A stretch of DNA of 64,000 nt, from contig NZ_SBJL01000003.1 of NCBI RefSeq assembly GCF_004634425.1, positions 310,001-374,000 of the forward strand, written 5' to 3'. The position numbers and the translations under genes are program-made. The notes beneath the pieces were generated by a model. That model saw nothing but the letters and a program-made list of their open reading frames with translations, made no database searches and was not told where the DNA came from. Origin of the DNA: Vitreimonas flagellata (GTDB lineage: Bacteria; Pseudomonadota; Alphaproteobacteria; Caulobacterales; Aquidulcibacteraceae). This document shows, in pieces, positions 58,885 to 61,964 of this stretch (position 1 is the stretch's first letter; every line of letters starts with the position of its first letter).

Positions 58885-58969
58885 TGGTGGACAGAGTTGG
58901 ACCCGAACCAACGCACCCCGAAGGGACGGCGTTTACAGCGCCGCGGTTTTGCCGCTCACCCATCTGTCC
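58885..58969 (-). tRNA. tRNA-Tyr (GTA anticodon)
   Basis: Read on the minus strand it folds as a class-II tRNA of 85 bases including an encoded CCA. Acceptor GGACAGA pairs with TCTGTCC, discriminator A. The D arm has GGT/ACC with GG in the loop; the anticodon stem CGGCG/CGCCG encloses CTGTAAA, giving anticodon GTA; a long variable arm CCC-TTCG-GGG follows; the T arm GTTGG-TTCGGGT-CCAAC is perfect. The gene is about 12 bases past the M16 partner stop, in the opposite orientation. Confidence 0.93.
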
Positions 58970-59085: not shown

Positions 59086-59337
59086 TCAATCCTCGCGGAA
59101 ATAGTGTTTCCGCTCGGCTCCGTCGAAGCGACCGCTCTTTATGCAGCAGCGCTTGAAACAACCTCCGAGAGCCGCACGGGCAGAGATCGTTGCGCCCGAG
59201 TTTCTCGATCAGTTCGACATCGCCCGCGCACCGCTCGGTCGCCGCGCTTTACGCGCGTTTCCGACGGATAGCCTTTGCGCCGCTTTGAAGACGGCTCAAA
59301 AGCAAGGCTGTTCAAGCGGATCACGATGGCGGGTCAT
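59086..59337 (-). pseudogene. Decayed SEC-C-motif small protein gene
   Basis: A strong ribosome-binding site AGGAGG is five bases before an ATG at 59337, and the reading frame ends with GRFDGAERKHYFRED and TGA at 59086. Between them the frame is broken: MTRHRDPLEQPCF reaches a TGA, EPSSKRRKGYPSETRV lies one frame over, VELIEKLGRNDLCPCGS (first half of a SEC-C zinc motif) in the third, and FKRCCIKSG (second half) is back in the first. The total is 252 bases, a multiple of three, as if three single-base insertions had happened. One is likely TTGTTTCAAG instead of TTGTTCAAG. Pseudogene or sequencing errors. Confidence 0.6.
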
Positions 59338-59417
59338 TGTAGCCTCCTATTGTAGGTCGAAATTGCTTGCTCGTCGGGATGCGTGATGAAGTGTGAGATT
59401 GCTCTCACACTTCGCAC

Positions 59418-60626
59418 TCAGCCCTTCACACAAACCACCTGACGTAGCGTGTGCACCACGTCGATCAAATCGGACTGCGCGGCCATCACGGCGTCGATGT
59501 CCTTGTAGGCCATCGGCGTTTCGTCGATCACGCCCGCGTCCTTACGGCATTCCACGCCTTCGGTCGCCGCACGGTGGTCGGCGAGCGTGAAACGACGCTT
59601 GGCTTCGGTGCGGCTCATCGCGCGGCCTGCACCGTGCGAGCAGGTGCAAAACGAATCCGCGTTGCCCTTGCCGCGCACGATGAACGACTTCGCGCCCATC
59701 GAGCCGGGTATGATGCCGAGTTCGCCTTCACCTGCGCGCACAGCGCCCTTGCGGGTCACGTACACGTCGGCGCCGAAGTGCCGTTCACGCGCCACGTAAT
59801 TGTGGTGGCAGTTCACGGCGTGCTTCTCGAGCTTGAACTTGGGCAGGTTGTCACGCAGCGCACGCAGGGTGCGCTCCATCATCACCTCGCGGTTCAGGCG
59901 CGCGTAATCTTGCGCCCAGCCCACGGCTTCGACGTAGTCGGCGAACAGGGGTTCGCCTTCCATGAAGAAGGCCAAGTCCTTATCCGGCACGTGGTAGCCC
60001 AGCTCGCGGCGGAGCAATTCATCGCGCGCACGCTCGATGAAATATTGCCCGATGCGATTGCCTGAGCCACGTGAGCCGGAGTGCAGCATCACCCAGACGC
60101 GGTCCTCTTCGTCGAGGCAGACTTCGATGAAGTGGTTTCCGCCGCCGAGCGTGGCGAGTTGCGCGGTTTGCGCTTTCGCCGACGCTTTCGGGTGCTTGTC
60201 GATGATCGCCTCGTAGCGCTCCTGCAAACCGCTATCGCGGTAGGCAGTGTCGACCGAGGCGGGCGACTCGCGGTGATTGCCGTTCGGGCCGTTGCCGTGC
60301 GGCACGTTGCGTTCGATCGCGCCGCGGATACGCGCGAATGAATCCGGCAGATCGTTTGCGGTCAACGACGTACGCACCGCCATCATCCCGCAGCCGATGT
60401 CGACGCCGACAGCGGCAGGGATGATCGCGCCCTTGGTCGGGATCACCGAACCAACGGTGGCGCCAATGCCGAAGTGAACGTCCGGCATCACGGCGATGTG
60501 GCTGTGGATGAACGGCAGCGAAGCTACGTTGCGCAATTGGTTTTGCGCTTCGTGCTCCACCGGCACGCCGCTGATCCAGGCCTTGATCGGCGCATTCGCG
60601 CCGAGGATTTCTTCGTAACCGGCCAT
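59418..60626 (-). CDS. rtcB: RNA-splicing ligase RtcB
   Basis: The product has 402 residues. RtcB joins 2',3'-cyclic phosphate or 3'-phosphate ends to 5'-OH RNA ends with GTP and Mn2+, repairing cleaved tRNA and other RNA. Seen: DVHFGIGATVGSVIP, VGVDIGCGMMAVRT (metal Cys), GGGNHFIEV (metal His), HSGSRGSGN, NCHHNYVARE, and SHGAGRAMSR with the His that is guanylylated. It is the last gene of an apparent operon with a 75-residue protein 13 bases upstream. GGAGACC is the ribosome-binding site. Confidence 0.95.
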   Translation of the reverse strand: MAGYEEILGANAPIKAWISGVPVEHEAQNQLRNVASLPFIHSHIAVMPDVHFGIGATVGSVIPTKGAIIPAAVGVDIGCGMMAVRTSLTANDLPDSFARIRGAIERNVPHGNGPNGNHRESPASVDTAYRDSGLQERYEAIIDKHPKASAKAQTAQLATLGGGNHFIEVCLDEEDRVWVMLHSGSRGSGNRIGQYFIERARDELLRRELGYHVPDKDLAFFMEGEPLFADYVEAVGWAQDYARLNREVMMERTLRALRDNLPKFKLEKHAVNCHHNYVARERHFGADVYVTRKGAVRAGEGELGIIPGSMGAKSFIVRGKGNADSFCTCSHGAGRAMSRTEAKRRFTLADHRAATEGVECRKDAGVIDETPMAYKDIDAVMAAQSDLIDVVHTLRQVVCVKG

Positions 60627-60639
60627 GACCGGTCTCCTT

Positions 60640-60867
60640 TCAAACGATGTTTTTCATGATGCTGGAGAGCGATTTCCGATTGAGGCGTTGAAGGTCTTTC
60701 AGCGCGTCCTCTTTGAGAGGCGCACTTGAGACATCCTCAACGACCCAAGGGCCGTTGTCGTCCAGCGTTGTGAGTTCGACCTGTGCGCCGACCTTCGCAC
60801 CGCGCGCCTCTATCCACGCGACAGTGCGTTCAGATCCGCGCCGGAATCTGCATTGGAAATAAAGCAC
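60640..60867 (-). CDS. Small hypothetical protein upstream of rtcB
   Basis: The product has 75 residues. The GTG start at 60867 has GAGGAG seven bases upstream. The N-terminus (LYFQCRFRRGSERTVAWIEARGAKVGAQVELTT) looks beta-rich; the C-terminus (LKDLQRLNRKSLSSIMKNIV) is a basic helix. I do not recognise it. The gap to rtcB is 13 bases, so both are read from one mRNA. Basic charge and context suggest an RNA-related role, which is inference. Confidence 0.7.
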   Translation of the reverse strand: MLYFQCRFRRGSERTVAWIEARGAKVGAQVELTTLDDNGPWVVEDVSSAPLKEDALKDLQRLNRKSLSSIMKNIV

Positions 60868-60916
60868 GCGTCTTCTCCTCGTTTCCGAGTGTCGAGAGCG
60901 GCCTGGAGCACATACG

Positions 60917-60952
60917 AAGAACCCCTCCAGGCCGCGCCTTGGAGGGGTTCTT
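60917..60952. repeat. Perfect 13-bp hairpin in the rtcB leader
   Basis: AAGAACCCCTCCA-GGCCGCGCCT-TGGAGGGGTTCTT, 13 base pairs without mismatch and a ten-base loop. It lies 50 bases upstream of the GTG at 60867 and downstream of the 31-codon ORF. No T run follows on the minus strand. Confidence 0.75.
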
Positions 60953-60976
60953 GCATCGCTCCGATGTCCGAAGACG

Positions 60977-61072
60977 TCAGTTCGCCGAACTCCTCCGCGC
61001 ATACACATCCTCCTGCACGCCGCGATACGCGACGGGCATTTGGTTGCTCGGGATTTGCTTCAGCGTTTTCAC
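60977..61072 (-). CDS. Possible 31-residue leader peptide of the rtcB locus
   Basis: GTG start at 61072 with GGAG seven bases upstream; the peptide reads VKTLKQIPSNQMPVAYRGVQ then EDVYARRSSAN. Its stop is 25 bases before the hairpin at 60952. No known leader peptide is matched. Its presence ahead of a hairpin and an operon is the layout of attenuators or upstream ORFs, but no run of a single amino-acid codon is seen. Confidence 0.4.
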   Translation of the reverse strand: MKTLKQIPSNQMPVAYRGVQEDVYARRSSAN

Positions 61073-61166
61073 GACACGTCTCCGAATGGGCCGCGCGTGT
61101 ATCATACGATTTGACGCGATGTCACGCGCAAAAACTGCAAAGTGCGCGTGCTGTTGCGCGCGTGCC

Positions 61167-61964
61167 TCACATATCGCGCGCGAGGTCTTCGTCAGCATCC
61201 GTATCGTGCGCTGCGCCAAGGCCTTGCTCGAGGAGCGCTTCCCACGCGGCTTCGGCAGTGTCGGCGAAGCGGAAGAGCGTGAGATCAGCCGCGTCGATCA
61301 TGCCGTACTCAATGAATTTCTCGAAATTGATCACCGTGCGCCAATAATTTTCATCCATCAGCACGATGGGCACGTGCGAGGCTTTGCGCGTTTGGCGCAG
61401 TGTGAGGATCTCAAACAATTCGTCCATCGTGCCGAAGCCGCCGGGGAAAACTACGAGCGCATTGGCGCGCATCGCAAGGTGCATTTTGCGCATCGCGAAA
61501 TAATGGAACGCGAAGGTGAGCTCGGGCGTCGAATACGAGTTTGGCTCTTGCTCGTGCGGCAAGGTGATGTTGAAGCCGATGCTGGGTGCGCCAGCTTCGC
61601 GTGCGCCGCGATTGGCGGCTTCCATAGCGCCCGGGCCCCCGCCCGTGGCGATTACGTTGTAGCGCGTGCCGCCTTCCTCGCAGAGCGCGCCGCCGCGTTC
61701 GGACGCGAGGCGACCAAACTTGCGCGCCTCTGCATACCAATGCGCCTGCTTGCCTGGGCCGTCTTCGCGAATGCGAGCGCTGCCGAAGACGACGATGGTG
61801 GAGGCGATGTGCGCGCGCTTCAGAACCTGATCGGCCTTTTCATATTCCAACATGAAGCGCACGCCGCGCGTGGATTCGCCGAGCAGGAAATCCTGATCGA
61901 TGGCGGCAAGACGGTAGGAGGGCGAGGCGATTTGCGCCGCGTTCGGCTTGGGTGAGTCGGTCAT
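61167..61964 (-). CDS. LOG-family protein (TIGR00730)
   Basis: The product has 265 residues. The signature [12 protein letters not shown] and the Rossmann-like start [13 protein letters not shown] are those of the LOG family (cytokinin riboside 5'-monophosphate phosphoribohydrolase), often misnamed lysine decarboxylase. [16 protein letters not shown] is the nucleotide site. In bacteria it may hydrolyse nucleotide 5'-monophosphates; the substrate is not settled. It is longer than the roughly 190-residue plant-type LOG, due to N- and C-terminal extensions. Divergent from mutL. Confidence 0.9.

Follow-up and report, generated by a model that had tools for sequence, protein, structure and literature searches.

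The rtcB gene of Vitreimonas flagellata lies in a locus whose gene order, as comparison across the genus shows, is conserved: a leader containing a short open reading frame (ORF) and a predicted intrinsic terminator precedes the RNA ligase gene and extra tRNA genes follow it on the same strand, a linkage that is rare among the other rtcB loci sampled. In our judgement the chances are about even that this constitutes an attenuated operon of RtcB and replacement tRNAs that answers tRNA damage, with a 75-residue protein as an accessory. The locus was analysed in a window of 64,000 nucleotides taken from a genome of 3.9 Mb, in which leader ORF, perfect 13-bp hairpin, 75-residue gene, 13 bases and rtcB follow one another 5′ to 3′ on the minus strand, all present as an earlier note on this DNA had described them. 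Its parts are the following.

61076..61086, minus strand: 5′ strand of helix P1, UUCGGAGACGU, including the leader ribosome-binding site
60977..61072, minus strand: leader ORF of 31 codons, with GTG at 61072 and a stop ending at 60977
60988..60996, minus strand: candidate antiterminator strand GGAGGAGUU, within the leader ORF, complementing 8/9 of the terminator 5′ arm
60967..60977, minus strand: 3′ strand of helix P1, ACGUCUUCGGA, beginning at the leader stop codon
60917..60952, minus strand: perfect 13-bp hairpin, the predicted intrinsic terminator of the leader, with arms at 60917-60929 and 60940-60952 and a 10-nt loop
60898..60908, minus strand: CUCCAGGCCGC, complement of the terminator 3′ arm and loop, a conserved alternative pairing
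60640..60867, minus strand: gene of the 75-residue small protein, GTG start, strong ribosome-binding site GAGGAG 7 nt upstream
60627-60639, minus strand: 13-base gap between the 75-residue gene and rtcB
59418..60626, minus strand: rtcB, RNA ligase of 402 residues (PF01139, E=8e-129)
approximately 59110..59200, minus strand: decayed fragment of a SEC-C motif gene in the interval between rtcB and tRNA-Tyr
58885..58969, minus strand: extra tRNA-Tyr(gta), 65% identical to the core tRNA-Tyr of the genome

An SD-like CGGAGA lies 5′ of the leader ORF, and further upstream there are a lysine-decarboxylase-family (LOG-like) gene on the same strand and MutL on the opposite one. The identity of the 402-residue product as RtcB is certain, residues 30-402 scoring 431 bits against a PF01139 gathering cut-off of 27. 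The layout had been held to differ from that of rtcBA under RtcR, and for the neighbours scanned this is borne out, as Pfam detected neither rtcA nor RtcR in the LOG-like neighbour and 10 further ORFs of the window.

The locus was compared in samples of 30 genomes of the genus and 60 genomes of the family. Nineteen of the 30 genus genomes have rtcB and 11 have no rtcB match; the genus loci are mutually related, and counts of loci are therefore not independent. ARAGORN places same-strand tRNA genes downstream of rtcB in 14/19 loci, in surroundings scanned over 14 kb where contigs allow and over 3.2 kb at least, giving 38 array tRNAs in total, 0 to 6 per locus, the first of them 43-1042 nt after rtcB. 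Four loci (G034, G041, G052 and G053; genomes carry our own numbers, G000 being that of the window) lack tRNAs within 6 kb, and in a fifth tRNA-less locus, G037, the contig ends 570 nt after rtcB. The recurrent types are Asp(gtc), Gln(ttg), Tyr(gta), Pro(tgg), Glu(ttc) and an 87-88-nt class II tRNA with CAU, while Arg(tcg) is the sole array tRNA in two loci. Strand and order are kept, and the distance of 43 nt is identical in two species. Beyond the genus, a tRNA follows rtcB at 47-141 nt in 3/3 rtcB loci of a sister genus, g3; the other eight family rtcB loci outside the genus have no tRNA in the flanks examined (up to 1.5 kb), and in a control set of 29 rtcB loci drawn from the class sample a tRNA occurs in the flanks of one, on the opposite strand.

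Measured against the two genomes whose tRNA sets were counted, the array tRNAs are supernumerary and divergent, and they resemble phage tRNAs. ARAGORN predicts 51 tRNA genes for G031 and 44 for the window genome, and the array tRNAs repeat an anticodon present elsewhere in their own genome in 5/5 cases in G031 and in 1/1 in the window genome. When the core tRNAs of these two genomes were used as reference, with a second cluster (L064) excluded, 36 of the 38 array tRNAs had a core tRNA with the same anticodon and were 58-78% identical to it, the remaining two both being Arg(tcg); the core tRNAs of G000, compared with their best same-anticodon match in G031, are 84-100% identical in 38/43 cases. 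Array and core copies differ in their anticodon stems and, for Asp and some Glu, Pro, Gln and Tyr copies, in the loop bases that flank the anticodon. The array tRNAs retain cloverleaf calls, with CCA encoded in 35/38, and the phage matches listed for the G046 array, short and 76-88% identical, fall on tRNAs wherever the matched place is annotated. We read the tRNA-Tyr of the window, which lies beyond the decayed SEC-C fragment, as a remnant of an rtcB-linked array; the same fragment recurs between the Asp and Gln tRNAs of G038 and G046.

Some observations concern individual tRNAs. The 87-88-nt tRNA with a long variable arm and CAU anticodon is found at L041 8248-8334 and L049 7982-8068 and also in the loci of G039, G046 and G054, and copies whose folds were seen have no Watson-Crick 1:72 pair. 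At L041 8077-8151, an array tRNA called as Ala(ggc) resembles the Asp type of other species with one anticodon base and the T arm altered, which represents either decay or a change of identity. The second cluster, L064 (G031 610500-613500), lies far from rtcB and comprises three 76-nt tRNAs that combine a short-arm body with a Leu anticodon, together with two divergent Ser tRNAs.

Analysis of the region upstream indicated that the hairpin is the intrinsic terminator of a conserved rtcB leader, composed of the ORF, two further helices, the terminator and a candidate antiterminator, and that leader ORF and hairpin hence form a candidate attenuator. Such a leader precedes rtcB or the small gene in 19/19 rtcB loci of the genus, and in each of them, by sequence and model, the terminator sits between the leader ORF and the first structural gene. 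A leader model, R1, recovered all 19 loci at E<=2e-13 when run against the 60 family genomes, having been built from these same 19 leaders; beyond the genus it also matched three rtcB loci, that of G025 strongly and those of G023 and G012 weakly, gave borderline matches in G003, G036 and G018 and at a second place in G059 (E 9e-5 to 0.009), and its further matches are opposite-strand echoes of the hairpin. The leader of the window folds at -103.9 kcal/mol against a shuffle mean of -83.5 (z=-4.3, better than 200/200 dinucleotide shuffles), the terminator dominating the predicted structure.

Of the 18 loci with a complete region, 17 keep the short ORF, which has a ribosome-binding site and is predicted to be translated, open over 31-32 codons; it is lost in G032, and in G058 the region is cut by a contig end. 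In one clade the start codon has shifted and a 2-nt gap preserves the frame. Across 13 ungapped sequences pN/pS is 1.05, and we therefore regard the peptide as unconstrained: conservation extends to the frame and not to the residues. In helix P1 the leader ribosome-binding site is paired with nucleotides at the stop codon. For 16 sequences both strands were available, and in 15 of these the duplex reaches -12.1 kcal/mol or lower, the value for G053 being -6.1. Helix P2, inside the ORF, has changes on both sides in 3/9 pairs, and the terminator helix, with such changes in 1/18 pairs, is almost invariant. It may be added that in G053, which has the weakest P1, the rtcB match is split across two frames, as if the leader were decaying along with rtcB.

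Several other readings of the leader were discarded. A frameshift element has as its sole Rfam match htlv_FSE (21 bits, E 0.8, plus strand), far below the gathering score, and an ORF spanning the terminator (ATG AAA AAC CCC...) would not keep its frame, as the count of A residues differs among loci. The idea that the leader lists the amino acids of the array finds 34/34 array isotypes in the leader of the same genome; as those leaders contain 16-19 different residues, 29.4 would be expected by chance, and we do not count this as evidence. An excess of residue diversity in the leader over chance is weak, the composition being assumed.

Among the 13 loci that lack the small gene, the CCCC arm of the terminator is separated from the start of rtcB by 77-93 nt in nine and by 140-166 nt in four. 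Because much of this interval is taken up by terminator and ribosome-binding site, a further promoter is unlikely in those nine loci, and this spacing suggests that rtcB is probably reached by transcriptional read-through of the terminator. A separate promoter within the hairpin region, which the earlier note had named as the finding that would speak against its proposal, is thus improbable. A sigma-70 scan of 59300-61200 returned no promoter-like site, and it should be noted that alphaproteobacterial promoters may escape such a scan.

A possible route to read-through is offered by the leader ORF itself, in which GGAGGAGUU (or GGAGGGAUU), as a rule 8 nt upstream of the stop codon, complements the terminator arm AACCCCUCC at 6-8 of 9 positions in the genus and at 9/9 in G025. 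In g3 (G010, G011) a leader GGAAGG stands opposite a CCUUCC terminator arm, a reciprocal change, and each leader type fits its own arm better than that of the other (-10.9 vs -7.6 and -11.1 vs -8.2 kcal/mol). Compared with shuffles the pairing is modest, the fraction as good being 0-0.32 per locus and above 0.05 in 12/24 loci, and the leader GGAGG is also an SD-like word. Just after the terminator, CUCCAGGCCGC pairs with the terminator 3′ side in 94.1% of cells with little covariation; at this 11-nt complement (window 60898-60908) wobble changes keep the pairing in several species. Ribosome-mediated attenuators, such as the leaders of amino-acid operons, consist of a short leader ORF, a terminator and a competing pairing, and the rtcB leader resembles them in its short ORF and its terminator and may do so in a competing pairing that overlaps the ORF. 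In contrast to amino-acid attenuators it contains no run of a single codon, and it would sense general failure of translation and control RNA repair. With no regulatory codon run visible in the ORF and a pN/pS of 1.05, which speaks against a conserved stalling peptide, we do not class it as a classical amino-acid attenuator; that it is an attenuator of some kind appears to us fairly likely.

The small protein, which the earlier note had put forward as a new partner of RtcB, has no NCBIfam match and matches 0 Pfam families at E<=10, the archease domain among them. Residues 1-65 of its 75 match positions 1-65 of the 70 in phrog_25356, a family of unknown function (E=2.2e-14). Its AlphaFold2 model (pLDDT 83, pTM 0.64) has no confident match in the PDB (best E-value 0.65), its best VIA Z of 3.5 belonging to the ARID4B Tudor domain, tied with others; the only BFVD matches under E 1e-3 are proteins of phages phiN3 and CcrColossus. 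Homology searches indicate that the family is rare. The gene occurs in 6/60 family genomes, all within the genus, and adjoins rtcB in 6/6; it is absent from 13/19 rtcB loci of the genus, is scattered over the rtcB tree and is missing from G052, the window's closest neighbour in that tree (rtcB 97% identical), and has therefore been gained or lost repeatedly. In the class sample two of 385 genomes gave a match, the genome itself and a weak one with an in-frame TGA, in the phylum sample one of 398, again its own, and other searches gave one viral contig and five genome contigs.

Outside the genus the family occurs in phages: tblastn against 50,697 phage records gave 17 at E<=0.01, representing eight distinct Rhizobium and four distinct Sinorhizobium phages. 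In four of the eight Rhizobium phages (RHph_TM21B, TM39, Y65 and TM61) an RtcB gene, its product 26% identical to that of the window, lies 0.2-0.8 kb upstream of the small gene; in TM2_3B, TM3_3_6, TM40 and TM30 the matched position carries a homing-endonuclease annotation, and the search for RtcB gave no match. Two Sinorhizobium phages were viewed, phiM12 and phiN3; in both the gene follows a tRNA-Met by about 110 nt and there is no RtcB match. In Caulobacter phage CcrColossus, whose homologue was found by fold (E 7e-4) and by profile (E 4e-5), 11 consecutive annotated tRNAs, of which two are labelled pseudo, end 189 nt ahead of the gene. The only match among 72,556 plasmid records, in Rhizobium leguminosarum pRlX5, lies within an array of 15 tRNAs and begins 45 nt downstream of one of them. 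The array of this megaplasmid is at L040 13508-17450, and several RtcB-family matches were seen elsewhere on the plasmid. Hence rtcB or tRNAs adjoin the small gene in all places viewed outside the genus except RHph_TM30, where RtcB had no match and the 32 kb read contain no tRNA, and by this comparison the common theme of its contexts is tRNA together with RtcB. The expected co-occurrence of the family with rtcB accordingly holds for the carriers in the genus and for half of the Rhizobium phages, and gives way to adjacency to tRNAs in the Sinorhizobium phages viewed, CcrColossus and the Rhizobium plasmid; partnership survives as linkage, and obligate pairing does not, so that on these distributions the small protein is not an obligate partner of RtcB.

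From this arrangement we infer co-transcription of rtcB and the tRNA genes under read-through control. Transcription would start 5′ of the leader ORF and normally end at the terminator; when ribosomes leave the leader unfinished, for instance because tRNAs are cleaved, the leader GGAGG would pair with the CCUCC arm of the terminator and RNA polymerase would continue into rtcB and the tRNA genes. RtcB would then religate cleaved tRNAs, the divergent phage-like tRNAs would substitute for lost ones, and the 75-residue protein, where a lineage or a phage possesses it, may play an accessory part with tRNA or RtcB as its target. Whether the operon serves tRNA damage is, in our estimate, evenly poised. 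A bolder version, to which we give a low probability, has phages and bacteria sharing a break-and-replace module for tRNA, in which a translated leader would sense the loss of usable tRNAs and, by antitermination, permit a single transcript for RtcB, a small tRNA-handling protein and divergent replacement tRNAs that escape the nuclease by their altered anticodon arms; if true, it would couple tRNA damage to RNA repair independently of RtcR.

The control step could be simpler than this. A constitutive partial terminator, or a gene for a small RNA or peptide, would fix rtcB at a low level by read-through with no switch involved, and the neutral pN/pS, a predicted fold dominated by the terminator and an antiterminator pairing just modestly above shuffles would all agree with it. 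It explains less well why the ORF holds its length of 31-32 codons despite a moved start, with the 2-nt gap keeping the frame, why P1 covers the leader ribosome-binding site in all but one of the sequences tested, and why leader and terminator have changed reciprocally in g3; we regard such a switchless leader as possible, at somewhat worse than even odds.

The region downstream of rtcB might instead be a hot spot at which phage-derived tRNAs and a small phage gene land without any joint function. The phage-like character of the array tRNAs, an array content varying from 0 to 6, the scattered small gene and the decayed SEC-C fragment at some loci are what such a landing site would leave behind. 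We nonetheless think it unlikely, since the arrays hold strand and order down to the same 43-nt distance in two species, their tRNAs retain cloverleaf calls and mostly an encoded CCA, and the small family also stands near rtcB in Rhizobium phages, an independent encounter with an RtcB only 26% identical. Similarly, the small protein could be a direct activator of RtcB in the manner of archease, as its position next to rtcB in every genus carrier and within 0.8 kb of it in half of the Rhizobium phages would suggest, but 13 of the genus loci do without the gene, and phiM12, phiN3 and CcrColossus carry it beside tRNAs, the first two with no RtcB match. An archease-like role is for these reasons doubtful, and we would give a direct action on RtcB of any kind a similarly low chance.

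The attenuated RtcB and replacement-tRNA operon that we favour has parallels among known systems. tRNA array units are large tRNA gene clusters with a threshold of about 20, and the arrays described here, with at most six tRNAs per locus, are smaller than that. Mycobacterial tRNA array units (PMC5966550, PMC12803027) likewise cluster divergent extra tRNAs, for which an antidefence role has been proposed; they are larger, and RtcB occurs 0 times in the main text of either paper. The nearest published parallel found is in Anabaena, where translational stress induces an operon of 26 tRNAs and TrcR acts as repressor of this operon and of rtcB alike (PMC10272220). Both cases would couple rtcB and a set of supernumerary tRNA genes to stress on translation; in Anabaena separate loci are joined by a repressor, whereas here they are physically linked on one strand behind a terminator leader. 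The rsr-yrlBA-rtcBA operon under RtcR (PMC7790460) also ties an operonic rtcB to broken tRNAs; here, by contrast, the scanned neighbours include no rtcA or RtcR, tRNA genes take the place of Y RNAs and the leader is attenuator-like. Phage tRNAs have been proposed to replace cleaved host tRNAs and to resist anticodon nucleases (PMC10264068, PMC7824862), and in phage tRNA clusters with RNA ligases, for example those of jumbo phages (PMC7824862), one genome similarly supplies tRNAs and RtcB against tRNA cleavage; unlike them, the present locus is a single one on a bacterial chromosome, conserved across a genus. Hence the idea of tRNA replacement by phages and the rtcB/tRNA stress response of Anabaena both appear here in one chromosomal locus. 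The literature searched yielded no account of rtcB physically joined to a tRNA array in one operon, nor of an attenuator before rtcB, and a description elsewhere is possible.

The locus bears on the cellular substrate of bacterial RtcB and on the switching of rtcB outside RtcR systems. A conserved locus of RtcB and spare tRNAs behind a terminator leader points to tRNA as the substrate, and it offers a testable signal in the failed translation of the leader. The small protein family, in turn, is a candidate tRNA-repair factor on both sides of the conflict between phage and host. Taken as a whole, the arrangement suggests a self-contained kit with which these bacteria may survive damage to their tRNAs.
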